Assembly (NCBI RefSeq): GCF_002245655.1
Contig: NZ_NOIH01000035.1
Location: forward strand, 1 to 40,442
Direction: 5' to 3'
Source of the DNA: Thauera propionica
GTDB taxonomy: Bacteria; Pseudomonadota; Gammaproteobacteria; Burkholderiales; Rhodocyclaceae
Length of the DNA: 40,442 nucleotides
Part shown: positions 1 to 6,200 of the stretch, in pieces
Position numbering within the stretch: position 1 is the stretch's first letter
Layout of the letters: each line of letters opens with the position of its first letter
Translations under genes and position numbers: made by a program
Notes under the pieces: model-generated
What the model was told of the DNA's origin: nothing
The model's database searches: none
The model's input: only the letters and a program-made list of their open reading frames with translations

Positions 1-199
1 CCGTGAGCCGACTGTTCATAACTGGGCGCTGGGCATAATGGCCGTTATGATCAGCTATCCATAACGGCCAGAAACCGCCACTGGTCACCCAATCCCGATA
101 GCAGCCATCCGAGCGATGGCAGTATGCTACCGGCGTGTGTGCCAGATCGGACGCATCGACCCGCAAGGTCGTCGGCTGCTGCTTTCTCTGCCTTTTTAT
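1..199 (-). CDS. possible partial reading frame running off the left edge
   Basis: The minus strand is open from a TGA at 200-202 to the window edge (66 codons). The translation is rich in Trp, His, Tyr and Cys, with stretches such as DWVTSGGFWPLWIADHNG. A TTG at 166 is the only plausible initiator near its beginning, and no ribosome binding site precedes it. I do not recognise the product. It lies where an integron integrase would be expected relative to the attI-like site, but nothing in it resembles a tyrosine recombinase. It may be a real gene truncated by the window or a chance frame. The rest of 1-330 holds an inverted repeat (40-69) and the attI-like site. Confidence 0.22.
   Translation of the reverse strand, partial: MKRQRKQQPTTLRVDASDLAHTPVAYCHRSDGCYRDWVTSGGFWPLWIADHNGHYAQRPVMNSRLT
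40..69. repeat. perfect 10-bp inverted repeat
   Basis: GGCCGTTATG (40-49) and CATAACGGCC (60-69) are exact reverse complements separated by 10 bases. A further CATAAC lies at 17-22. The GTTATG/CATAAC core resembles integrase simple sites, so this may be part of the recombination platform left of attI. It could equally be an operator or a small terminator. Confidence 0.5.
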
Positions 200-262
200 T
201 CAGTGCTTCGCGTAGTTTCTGCTTCTAAACAGTAACTTGTCGAACACGTTATCCGGCATTCC

Positions 263-305
263 GATGTTATGCGGCATAACTGTCGCCCTAAAACAAAGTT
301 ATATC
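263..305 (+). other. attI: attI1-like integron recombination site
   Basis: The 20 bases GTCGCCCTAAAACAAAGTTA at 282-301 match, from memory, the right end of the class 1 integron attI1 site. The preceding GATGTTATGCGGCA (263-276) corresponds to the GATGTTACGCAGCA found at the same distance in attI1. Cleavage would fall between G298 and T299, placing the first cassette directly to the right. A perfect GTTATGC-G-GCATAAC palindrome (266-280) overlaps the weaker integrase-binding region. Two cassette-like genes with attC sites follow in the correct orientation. No intI gene can be seen in the short stretch to the left. Confidence 0.8.
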
Positions 306-330
306 CGCAAGAGCACCGCACGAGATACCT

Positions 331-798
331 ATGAAGACTGATGCAAAACTTTCGGAGTGCAGGCAATACCGTTACGCACTCTGGCGCACGTGGGACGACT
401 CGAAACCTTATGCAATGTTTGTTGGCCTGAATCCGTCTACTGCTGACGAAACAGACGATGACCCAACCATAAGACGTTGCATTGGTTTCGCCAAAGATTG
501 GGGGTACGGCGGTCTGTGCATGGCCAATTTATTCGCTTATCGCGCTACCGACCCAAGCAATATGTTTTCAGCCCAAGATCCTATCGGGCCACAAAACGAT
601 GTTTGGCTTGAGAGGCTCGCAAAAGATGCTGGTATCGTCGTGGCAGCTTGGGGAAATCACGGCGGGCACCTTGGTCGCTCAAAAATAGTTTCAGCACTCA
701 TACCAAATCTTCAATGTTTGAAAGTTAACAAGTCAGGTGAGCCGGCACACCCGCTGTATCAGCCAAGCACAGCAAAGCCAATAGCGTTTCACGCATAA
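331..798 (+). CDS. DUF1643 family protein (integron cassette 1)
   Basis: The 155-residue protein has the DUF1643 signature: an N-terminal RYALWRTWDDSKPYAMFVGLNPSTAD block (given in part; residues about 14-39), then DDPTIRRCIGFAKDWGYGG and a MANLFAYRATDP stretch. The family's biochemical function is unknown; members are frequent in phages, plasmids and integron cassettes. The gene begins 33 bases after the attI crossover, has only a weak ribosome binding site, and its TAA stop (796-798) is embedded in the GCATAAC core box of the following attC. Both are typical of cassette genes. It would depend on an integron promoter to the left. Codon use is less G+C-rich than in the core genes downstream. 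Confidence 0.85.
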   Translation: MKTDAKLSECRQYRYALWRTWDDSKPYAMFVGLNPSTADETDDDPTIRRCIGFAKDWGYGGLCMANLFAYRATDPSNMFSAQDPIGPQNDVWLERLAKDAGIVVAAWGNHGGHLGRSKIVSALIPNLQCLKVNKSGEPAHPLYQPSTAKPIAFHA

Positions 799-880
799 CA
801 TGGCGCTCAACCTCGCTCCCTTCGGTCGCTGGACGCTGCGCGATAAAGCCGCGCAGCGCCGGTTAGCTCTACGTTAGGTT
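793..880 (+). other. attC: attC site of cassette 1
   Basis: The left core is GCATAAC (793-799) and the right core is GTTAGGT (874-880), fitting GTTRRRY. Inside these, GCTCAACC pairs with GGTTAGCTC with one unpaired base, as expected for L'' and L' boxes carrying an extrahelical base. A central stem (GCTGCGCG against CGCGCAGC) forms the variable terminal structure. The left core contains the stop codon of the DUF1643 gene. Length is about 88 bases, within the normal attC range. Confidence 0.8.
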
Positions 881-887
881 GCAGACC

Positions 888-1577
888 ATGATTTGCACAA
901 AGTGCGGGGGAACCAGATTCAACAGTTGGAATCGTTGCATGGACTGCCGCAATCAGCGAGCAAAAGTGCGGGCAGAAAGAGTAAAGAAGAATGGCGGCTC
1001 TCATACCAGCACAGAATGGAAGTCGCTCTTGGCAAACAGCCCAAACTGTGCCGAATGCGTTCGGCCTTGGGCGGAGATACCTCCTCGACCTGACCCACGT
1101 TACAAACACCCTTGGACGAAGGGCCACAAAATACCGATTTATCACGGTGGATCAGACGACATTTCAAATATCCAGGTTGAGTGCTACGAATGCAATTTTC
1201 GCAAGAATGCCGGTGCGCTTGGTCGCGCACGAACAGGCAATACGAATCCAGTTAAGAAACCCAACAGCGGAAATAACATGCCCACTGCGCAAGAACGAAT
1301 ATCGAGAAGATTTAGCTTCATTCTCAACAATGGAACAGAAGTTTTTCCGGTACAGATGAAGAGGCGTGATACGGGGACGATTGCATTCAGAGTTTCTCCT
1401 GGCGGTACGGGTGGTAACACCCTTGAAGCCAGTGAAGAAGTGGATGAAGAAACGATGGTGCGGAAAGTGCTCGAAGAGGGCTACGCTGTTCGCTGCAGAT
1501 CTTTGGATGGAAACACGAATGGCTTATACAAGCACGGCCATAGGTCAGTACGGGAAATCCGCCGAAATGCAACCTAA
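888..1577 (+). CDS. HNH-type endonuclease-like protein (integron cassette 2)
   Basis: ATG at 888 gives 229 residues; an in-frame TTG nine bases earlier is a weaker alternative. Residues 3-20 carry two CxxC pairs (CTKC, CMDC), a probable zinc knuckle. A further CAEC pair is followed by GHKIPIYHGGSDDISN and CYECN, which is the HNH pattern: His-Lys-Ile-Pro, the central Asn, and a CxxC zinc pair at about residues 85-110. The last 95 residues form a separate unrecognised domain. HNH proteins are often restriction or mobile-element nucleases; the substrate here is unknown. The TAA stop (1575-1577) lies within the ACCTAAC core of the next attC, marking it as a cassette gene. Confidence 0.75.
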   Translation: MICTKCGGTRFNSWNRCMDCRNQRAKVRAERVKKNGGSHTSTEWKSLLANSPNCAECVRPWAEIPPRPDPRYKHPWTKGHKIPIYHGGSDDISNIQVECYECNFRKNAGALGRARTGNTNPVKKPNSGNNMPTAQERISRRFSFILNNGTEVFPVQMKRRDTGTIAFRVSPGGTGGNTLEASEEVDEETMVRKVLEEGYAVRCRSLDGNTNGLYKHGHRSVREIRRNAT

Positions 1578-1652
1578 CAACACTATCAACTCGGACGTGC
1601 AAAAGCGCCGCTTCGCTCTGCTTTTACACGCCGGTTATGGTGAACGTTCCAG
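1572..1652 (+). other. attC: attC site of cassette 2
   Basis: The left core ACCTAAC (1572-1578) fits RYYYAAC exactly and contains the HNH gene's stop codon. TCAACTCGG and CCGGTTA form L'' and L' with an unpaired base. The central hairpin pairs GTGCAAAAGC with GCTTTTACAC, with one extra base on the left arm. The right core is GTTCCAG (1646-1652), which departs from GTTRRRY, so it probably abuts a degenerate cassette or chromosomal DNA. Confidence 0.65.
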
Positions 1653-1730
1653 CGGACCGCCTTCGGCGGCCGCTGAACTCTGACGTCGAGCGACAGCTTT
1701 CCTCAAAGCTCAACGTCAGGAGCGGGTCGA
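1641..1730 (+). repeat. degenerate attC-like hairpins at the array's right end
   Basis: TTCCAGCGG (1647-1655) pairs with CCGCTGAA (1670-1677) around a CCGCC-TTC-GGCGG stem, and GTCGAGC follows at the distance a right core would have (1685-1691). A second structure follows: CTGACGT (1680-1686) with ACGTCAG (1713-1719), enclosing AGCTTT-CCTC-AAAGCT (1695-1710). Both resemble decayed or partial attC sites with no gene between them. Confidence 0.4.
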
Positions 1731-3222: not shown

Positions 3223-6200
3223 CTACGCCCGCCCCAACCTGAACCACAGCGCGTACAGCGCCGGCACGAACAGCAGCGTGATCGCCGTGCCCACCGCGAC
3301 GCCGCCGATCAGCACGTAGGCCAGCGGCCCCCAGAAGGTGTCGAGCGTGAGCGGGATGAAGGCGAAGGCGGCGGCGAGCGCGGTGAGGATGACCGGGCGC
3401 GCGCGCTGCACGGCGGCCTCGACGACGCCTTCGAAGGCGTTCATGCCTTCCTCGAAGTTGTCGGCGACCTGCTGGGTGAGGATGAGCGTGTTGCGCATGA
3501 GGATGCCGGCGAGGCCGGTGAGGCCCAGCAGCGCGACGAAGCCGAAGGGCTGGTTGAACAGCAGCAGCGCCAGCACTGCGCCGATGAGCCCCAGCGGGGC
3601 GGTGGCGACGACGATGAAGGTGCCGGAGAAGGTGCGCATCTGCAGCATGATGAAGATGAGCATGAACGCGACCATGACCGGCTGCAGCTTCTGGATGGAG
3701 GCGTTGGCCTTGCCCGACTGCTCGACCGCGCCGGAGATCTCCAGGTGATAACCGGGCGGCAACTGGCTGCGCAGTTCGGCCAGCGCGTTCCAGACATCCG
3801 CGGTGACGTCGTTGGGCTGGGCGCCTTCGACGTCGCCCTGCACCGATAGCGACAGCTCGCGGTTGTAGCGCTTGATGACCGGCTCCTCGAAGCGCAGCGC
3901 GAGGCGGCCGAGCTGGCTGGCGGGCAGCTTGCGGCCGTCGGGGGTCAGGATCTCGAGCGTCGACAGGCTTTCGGCGTCGAGCCGCTGGCCGCCGTTGGCG
4001 CCGCGGGCGATGACGTCCACGGTGCGCACGTCCTGCCGCACCTGGGTGACGCGCACGCCGCTGAACTGGAACTGCAGTTGCTGCGCCACGTCCTGCGGGG
4101 TGAGGCCGAGCAGGCGCAGGCGTTCGGTGTCCATCTCCAGGTGCAGCACGGGGGCGCGCTCGTCCCATTCCAGGTGCGGATCGACCACGTGCGGGTTGGC
4201 GGCCATGATCTCGCGCACCCGATGCGCGATGCGGCGCACTTCCAGCGCGTCGGCGCCGACCACGCGGAAGGCCACCGGCCAGATCACCGGCGGGCCGTAC
4301 AGCAGGCGCGACACGCGCACCCGCGCCTCGGGGAACTCGCCTTCGTCGATGTGGCGCTGCAGCTCGGCCATGATGCGGGTGCGGGCGGGCACGTCCTGGC
4401 TGACGGCGATGATCTTGGCGAAGGCCGGATCGGGCGGTTCGGGGTTGGCGGCGAGGAAGAAGCGGGGCGCGCCGCCGCCGACGTAGCTCGACAGCGTGCG
4501 CACGTCCGACATGGGCGCGAGGATGGCTTCGATCTTGCGCACGGTGGCGTCGGTGGCGCCGATGCTGCTGCCTTGCGGCAGATAGACGCTGATGAGCACC
4601 TCGGGGCGGTCGGAGCTGGGGAAGAACTGCTTCTGCACCAGCGTGACCATGCCGACCACCGCCACCACGAGCAGGCCCAGCGTGCCGAACACCACCGACT
4701 TGCGCCAGGTGACGCACCAGGTGATGAGCCGACGCAGGCGGCGGAACATGGGCGTCTGGTACACGCTGGCGTGGTCATGCACGTTCTCGCGCGCCACTTC
4801 GGGCAGCATCTTCACCCCCAGGTAGGGGGCGAACACCACCGCCACCAGCCACGACACCAGCAGCGACAGCGCCAGAACCCAGAAGATGTTGCCGGCGTAC
4901 TCGCCCACCGACGAGCGCGCGAAGCCGATCGGCAGGAAGCCCGCCACCGTGACCAGCGTGCCGCACAGCATGGGCGCGGCGGTGACGTTCCACGCATGGG
5001 CGGCCGCGCGCACGCGGTCCCATCCTTCCTCCATCTTCACCAGCATCATCTCGACGGCGATGATAGCGTCGTCCACCAGCAGGCCCAGGCCGATGATGAG
5101 CGCGCCGAGCGAGATGCGGTCGAGGTTGATCCCCATCAGCTTCATCACCAGGAAGGTGATACCCAGCGTCAGCGGTACCGCGATGCCCACCACCAGCCCC
5201 GCGCGCCAGCCGATGGCCAGCATGCTGACAGCGACCACCACCGCCACGGCGACGAGGAACTTGATCTGGAAGAGATTGACCGCGCCGGCGATGGCCTCGG
5301 CCTGGTTGGTCAGCACCTCGAGCGAGATGCCCAGCGGCAGGCGTTCGCGTTCGGACTCGATGAAGGCCGCCAGCCGTTTACCCAGCTCCAGGCCGTTCTC
5401 GCCCTTGGCCATGACCATGCCGAGCAGCACCGCATCCTCGCCGCGCGAGCGCACCAGATAGCCCGGCGGGTCTTCGTAGCCGCGCTGGATGGTGGCGATG
5501 TCGCCGAGGCGCAGCACGCGGTCAGCCACGCGGATGGGTACGGCGGCGAGCTGCGCCGGGTCGGACAGGTCGGCGTCGAGCCGCAGGTACAGGCGCGGGC
5601 CGTCGGTCTCGATGCTGCCGGCCGGCAGCAGGCGGTTGTGCGCGGCGATGGCGTCGAACACCGCCTGCGGCGACAGGCCCAGGTTGACCAGCGTGGCGTT
5701 GTCGAAGGACACATACACCCGCTCCGGGCGCTCGCCCAGCACCTGCGCCTTGTGCACGCCGGGCACGTGCTGCAGACGGTCGCGGATCGCCTCGGCCTCG
5801 CGCACCAGCTCGCGCATCGGCATGCCGTGCGCGGTGAGCGCGATGAGGCTGAAGTAGGTATCGGCGAAGTCTTCGTTGACGATCGGGCCGATGACACCCG
5901 CCGGCAGGCTGGCGGCCTCGTCCTGCATGCGCTTGCGCACGTCGTACTTCAGCGCCGGCACCTGCGCCGGCGGCGTATGGTCGTGGAACTCCACCTGCAG
6001 GTTGGCCGAGCCGGGGCGCACCGTGGTGATGATGCGGTAGATGTTCTCGACGTCCTGGATGCGCTTTTCCAGCCGGTCGACGACCTGCTCCTGCATCTCC
6101 TGCGGCGTGGCGCCGGGCCACACCGCATTGACGACCATGACGCGCATCGTGAACGACGGGTCTTCCGCGCGGCCGAGCGACAGGAAGGCGTAGACGCCGG

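Follow-up and report, generated by a model that had tools for sequence, protein, structure and literature searches.

Positions 65-1729 of the window (the whole stretch of DNA analysed, 40,442 nt, which is the entire contig C29 of a 3.93-Mb draft genome of Thauera propionica in 57 contigs) very probably represent an integrase-less integron unit, in which an attI-type site with a leader (LF) heads a short array of cassettes that closes with a fixed right end (EF), and which belongs to a family dispersed in Thauera and its relatives. Judged by its sequence, the unit has two ends, no intI1 inside, cassette junctions at G^TT and one good attC; elsewhere the genome encodes full-length IntI1, and a sister copy of LF is the same as the LF of plasmids. 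The features are as follows.

65-1729 (+ strand): integron unit, made up of the LF leader, the DUF1643 and HNH cassettes and the EF right end
1-73 (no strand assigned): terminal repeat of a three-tyrosine-recombinase element with its body on contig C16 (inverted match of 11-73 to C16:2855-2793)
65-298 (+ strand): LF, attI-like leader of a repeated family, from the left end CGGCCA to the G of the crossover point
248-249 (+ strand): crossover point A, G^TT (138 of 435 pairs lose homology at 246-253)
261-300 (+ strand): attI1-like core, which contains crossover point B, G298^T299 (attI1 match; 124 of 435 pairs end at 296-303)
331-798 (+ strand): gene of cassette 1, DUF1643 protein (PF07799, E=4.8e-49; phrog_3230); the cassette covers about 299-873
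793-879 (+ strand): attC of cassette 1, attC1 (covariance model, 27.9 bits, E=1.3e-4)
888-1577 (+ strand): gene of cassette 2, HNH endonuclease-like (PF01844, E=1.3e-6 with the ORF taken from 879; PHROG HNH families)
1572-1649 (+ strand): degenerate hairpin that resembles an attC, at the end of cassette 2 (1568-1648 folds with z=-1.8)
1645-1685 (+ strand): attC half lacking R'' (model: 1645-1684, 17.5 bits, E=0.033)
1686-1729 (+ strand, 44 bp): EF, right end of the unit, placed by profile match and boundary; it ends with GGGTCG

A preliminary description had reported an attI1-like site and two cassettes at the left end of the window, and both are real. The extent that it gave, 263-1730, runs one base past the right end and starts inside the leader. 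It had also spoken of a fragment; that term is not supported, since the two defined ends of the unit are common to many other copies. Directly 3' of EF lies a cold-shock/DUF1294 (CSD/DUF1294) gene. In the open-licence PMC literature we found no paper describing LF; an earlier description of the unit ends may exist outside that scope.

Crossover points and cassettes

The attI-type site was recognized by an exact 19-nt match of positions 282-300 to the right end of attI1, which occurs once in the window. The attI1-like match as a whole reached a local score of 25 over 37 columns, compared with 15 for the best of 4022 other tiles, and is diverged further left. In an alignment of 37 LF copies, homology breaks at the G^TT points. 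When 30 copies were compared in 435 pairs, 262 pairs lost homology at the two G^TT points, whereas in the remaining 173 homology ended elsewhere, which counts against our reading of the unit. An empty LF unit, with crossover point B joined directly to EF and one mismatch allowed, was found in none of 29 Thauera genomes, a further point against it.

As had been proposed, the stop codons of both cassette genes lie inside attC cores, that of the DUF1643 ORF in the R'' box of attC1 and that of the HNH ORF in an R''-like box at 1572-1578. Two attC folds had been proposed as well. We searched for them with a covariance model derived from 17 attC sites at other loci. It recognized the first and missed the second hairpin, whose degeneracy also counts against our reading; the single-strand folds by themselves were unremarkable (z -1.7, -1.8 and -2.6). 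The stretch 802-878 of attC1 is 96% identical to C18:793-869 in the same genome. An ORF followed by attC and bounded by G^TT, the make-up of a gene cassette, is evident in cassette 1 and weakly so in cassette 2; the fused attC half after the HNH hairpin (1645-1691) was probably left behind when a last cassette was lost.

The suggestion that the two genes form a mobile defence pair is not supported: PADLOC returned no match for DUF1643, and its two REase_II matches to HNH were weak (E 0.0018 and 0.0052). Rfam gave 0 matches over the window at the gathering threshold.

The LF family

LF is a repeated sequence. Matches were found in 20 of 29 Thauera genomes, and the genome under study has five copies. 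In a draw of 150 genomes from the family, 18 (Thauera included) had a match, some at the attI core only; in a draw of 399 genomes from the order there were two, the present genome among them. The LF of the plasmids described below matched two of 369 genomes drawn from the class, namely the present genome and one with a match to the core only. The best matches of the window LF elsewhere (84-85% identity) are in other species and other genera of the family, and its identity to the other copies in its own genome is 76-80%; a closer relationship across species and genera than within the genome is expected of a dispersed family.

Both ends of the unit recur with LF. Among the 37 copies in fetched loci, which include the near-duplicates L057/L058 and L065/L066 and the plasmid copies L072, L088 and two in L089, the left end is exactly CGGCCA in 34. 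EF follows on the same strand within 6 kb in 23 of the 37, and none of these 23 units contains intI1. The fetched locus ends within 6 kb in 12 cases, and in the other two no EF was found within 6 kb, which counts against our reading of the unit; in no case did an EF on the opposite strand come first.

Two other identities of LF were considered and rejected. As a structured RNA it had a covariation term of -0.3. As for the first 115 positions being a remnant of intI1, the LF profile generally aligns with intI1 units only from position 116 or later. From about position 116, LF aligns weakly with the intI1-attI1 spacer, mostly at 24-33 bits; one IntI1 locus aligned with LF positions 85-242 only, at 35 bits. 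No consensus promoter was found on the sense strand near LF, which again counts against our reading; the first 1.9 kb of the window contains one in all, at 1298-1327 of the minus strand, where 1.3 would be expected.

Some units stand in tandem. In three such places (L020:575-671, L021:575-678 and L081:5630-5740), a conserved spacer, about 60 bp long, connects the GGGTCG of one unit with the CGGCCA of the next; it starts near GTCGAGAC and finishes near GTCTCAGTC.

Relation to class 1 integrons

The LF unit shares with class 1 integrons (chromosomal and Tn402-borne) a similar attI core, crossover at G^TT, cassettes with attC, the left end CGGCCA and the right end EF/GGGTCG; it differs from them in lacking intI1 and in the first 115 positions of its leader, which are a different sequence. 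No IntI1 match was found in the window at E<=1e-3, so that intI1 does not stand beside attI as in a class 1 integron. In intI1 units, about 110 bases after intI1 are conserved, and they end with TGGCCG, the complement of CGGCCA. Among 80 fetched intI loci, some of which are cut or different at these places, CGGCCA was present in 55 and EF in 16; the 11 loci with integrases of 73-77% identity had neither outer end. The outer ends of the window unit are thus those of the class 1 integron, and the LF units appear to be siblings, lacking an integrase, of the intI1-bearing ones. The preliminary description had seen in this DNA a relative or ancestor of the class 1 platform, known in environmental betaproteobacteria. 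That it is an integron piece of such kinship, in the environmental betaproteobacterium Thauera, is supported; as for an ancestor, the unit, with both outer ends in common with the intI1 unit, is better read as a sibling.

Four contigs of the genome carry integrase genes: intI1-type genes are full-length on C28 and C35, frameshifted on C33 and degraded on C16. At the protein level, the IntI1 of C28 is 100% identical (rounded) over 337 amino acids to many named records; for the Pigmentiphaga locus L107 the unrounded value is 99.7%. In the same locus (4560-4900), attI1 is joined directly to EF and Tn402-like sequence, as an empty class 1 integron.

C16 appears to adjoin the window, from the 44-nt overlap between the end of C16 and the window start. 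If it does, the degraded intI1-like gene of C16 (75-82% amino acid identity in two main pieces, with in-frame stops) would then lie about 3.5 kb to the left, with its own attI facing away. Between them would be the element with three recombinases (window 1-73; C16, fetched as L017, 2796-6317). It encodes three adjacent Phage_integrase proteins between inverted ends, the arrangement of a RIT element, and we take it to be of the RIT-like family. A 32-bp direct repeat (window 39-70, C16:2796-2827, 100% identical), found once on each contig, flanks it. Contig C39 also ends in the left repeat of this element, so a second copy is possible.

These data can be explained in another way, by an ordinary chromosomal class 1 integron that decayed in place, with the remnant on C16 as its integrase, the cassettes in the window as its array and the three-recombinase element splitting the two. 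We consider this improbable. The degraded gene and the overlap of the contig ends are as it would have them, but an attI-like core that belongs to the C16 remnant lies on its far side (C16:1992-2027), the remnant turns its 3' end, not the attI end, towards the window, and LF occurs, complete with a left end, at many other sites that lack intI1. With the three-recombinase element taken out, the remnant would lie back to back with the unit of the window. The same order with an intact intI1 occurs in genome G005, where L061:1753-11810 contains EF and cassettes, attI1 and intI1, followed by an LF pointing the opposite way, its cassettes and EF.

Partial attI1 sequences outside an intact intI1-attI1 context, as here, are known from the delta-attI-type gene cassettes (PMC12901181); there an attI remnant replaces attC at the end of a cassette, whereas in the window a full leader heads the array. 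The report of such cassettes (PMC12901181) would agree with a reading in which EF plus LF is a gene-less cassette, its attC replaced by an attI-like site, and the arrays are longer arrays containing such spacers; so would contigs C35 and C17, where an LF begins about 60 bp beyond an EF. Solitary units, however, run from CGGCCA to GGGTCG, not between G^TT points, against unrelated flanks that include Tn402-like backbones, and this makes a gene-less cassette very unlikely.

The window unit resembles a CALIN in having a cassette array (one good attC, 793-879, and one half site) without a neighbouring integrase, and differs in having an attI-type site and two fixed ends repeated across genomes; off-target insertion at a chance secondary site, which is named as one origin of CALINs (PMC8618304) and would likewise give attC-bearing cassettes without integrase, is hardly credible for a conserved, repeated 234-bp leader with fixed ends.

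In the integrase-less unit with its own attI-type site, cassettes would be inserted at LF by IntI1 acting in trans. The G^TT breakpoints, the resistance cassettes found behind LF and the report of short attI1 derivatives on which IntI1 is functional (PMC12901181) make this the most likely mechanism of loading, and the full-length IntI1 of the same genome makes loading in trans likely here. Of the 20 Thauera genomes with LF, nine show no intI at E<=1e-60, which counts against it; some of these are incomplete drafts. The LF unit offers a concrete route to integrase-free arrays, in which attI is kept and the integrase would come from elsewhere in the genome.

Resistance plasmids and probable movement of whole units

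One of the LF copies of this genome, C35:3181-3413 (minus strand), is identical to the LF of plasmid pMRCP1333 (233/233 nt), to that of pYKBR041 (236/236, with the match continuing for a few bases beyond the crossover) and to the remaining part of LF on pN260-3 (191/191). The EF of the C35 unit is present exactly on pN260-3 and pYKBR041 and absent from pMRCP1333, whose EF is of the type seen in L107 and similar integrons. Directly behind LF are resistance cassettes on all three; pMRCP1333 and pN260-3 carry blaIMP-1, and pYKBR041 carries aac(6')-31. No IntI1 match was found in the three fetched plasmid stretches (11-12 kb), with L107 serving as positive control. After EF, all three plasmids continue as do class 1 integrons such as L107 (ACACCGG...), and the left flank of pMRCP1333 and pYKBR041 is similar, not identical, to that of the same integrons. 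We take these flanks to be Tn402-like, in keeping with annotated tniR/tinR genes.

Among 72,556 plasmid records, these three plasmids were the only ones with high-identity LF matches; a search with the window LF in a more sensitive mode added three Thauera plasmids, and E. coli records gave no LF match. Judged by its genes (PPK2, pyruvate kinase), contig C35 appears to be chromosomal, and homologues of its PPK2 occur in nine of 28 other Thauera genomes at 67-90% amino acid identity. Because LF is diverse in Rhodocyclaceae and uniform on the plasmids, transfer would have gone from chromosome to plasmid. An LF unit of this lineage would then have been captured by a Tn402-type transposon and would now head resistance cassettes. 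These data suggest that a Tn402-type element has taken up an integron of Rhodocyclaceae for a second time. An LF unit identical to the head of Tn402-like resistance arrays points to a second, separately captured platform, one that would presumably go unnoticed in an assay directed at intI1 only.

LF may also supply a promoter for the cassettes. A host of pYKBR041 was kanamycin resistant, and in the published table aac(6')-31 is the sole resistance gene listed and no integron is listed (PMC9499019). With aac(6')-31 first behind LF, this suggests that LF or its flank provides the promoter.

Whole units appear to move, considering their dispersal and the presence of both unit types at the corresponding place in Tn402-like backbones. 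The unit ends are sharp; by eye, many left flanks group into families that recur and break off where the unit begins, and in some cases the left and right flanks resemble imperfect inverted repeats (unscored). When joined flanks of Thauera units were compared with the 29 genomes as a query of 1426 of 2400 nt (five flank pairs and a shortened sixth, of ten), no match clearly spanned the junction of an empty chromosomal site, which counts against our reading. In 13 relative loci we looked at the region upstream of the CSD/DUF1294 gene: the EF profile matched in three (G001, G009 and G011), and GGGTCG-like relics were seen by eye in four (G005, G021, G024 and G026). The other six loci (59-64% amino acid identity, possibly paralogues) showed no relic, in an alignment too poor to call empty sites. 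The modules in G001, G009 and G011 at the chromosomal place of the window unit indicate that the insertion may be old.

A broader reading, which we offer tentatively as a serious possibility, is that Rhodocyclaceae have a native family of bounded units (CGGCCA...GGGTCG) to which the class 1 integron belongs. Such units would insert whole at preferred targets by means of a putative enzyme, and most would lack an integrase and rely on one in trans. Tn402-type elements would have captured them at least twice: a unit with intI1 would have given the clinical class 1 integron, and a unit lacking intI1 would be the LF unit that heads the aac(6')-31 and blaIMP-1 arrays.

A further sequence is associated with the crossover points. 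A stretch of at least 2.5 kb, with an ORF for a tyrosine recombinase of 302 amino acids, begins exactly at the G^TT of attI1 on C28 and in G005; a 94% identical stretch begins at crossover point A of LF in G009, and its first 86 bp are also found at LF in G028 (L018:1-2506, L078:4656-7161, L059 and L181:4425-6928, L069:4223-4308). This stretch may be an element that targets attI sites.
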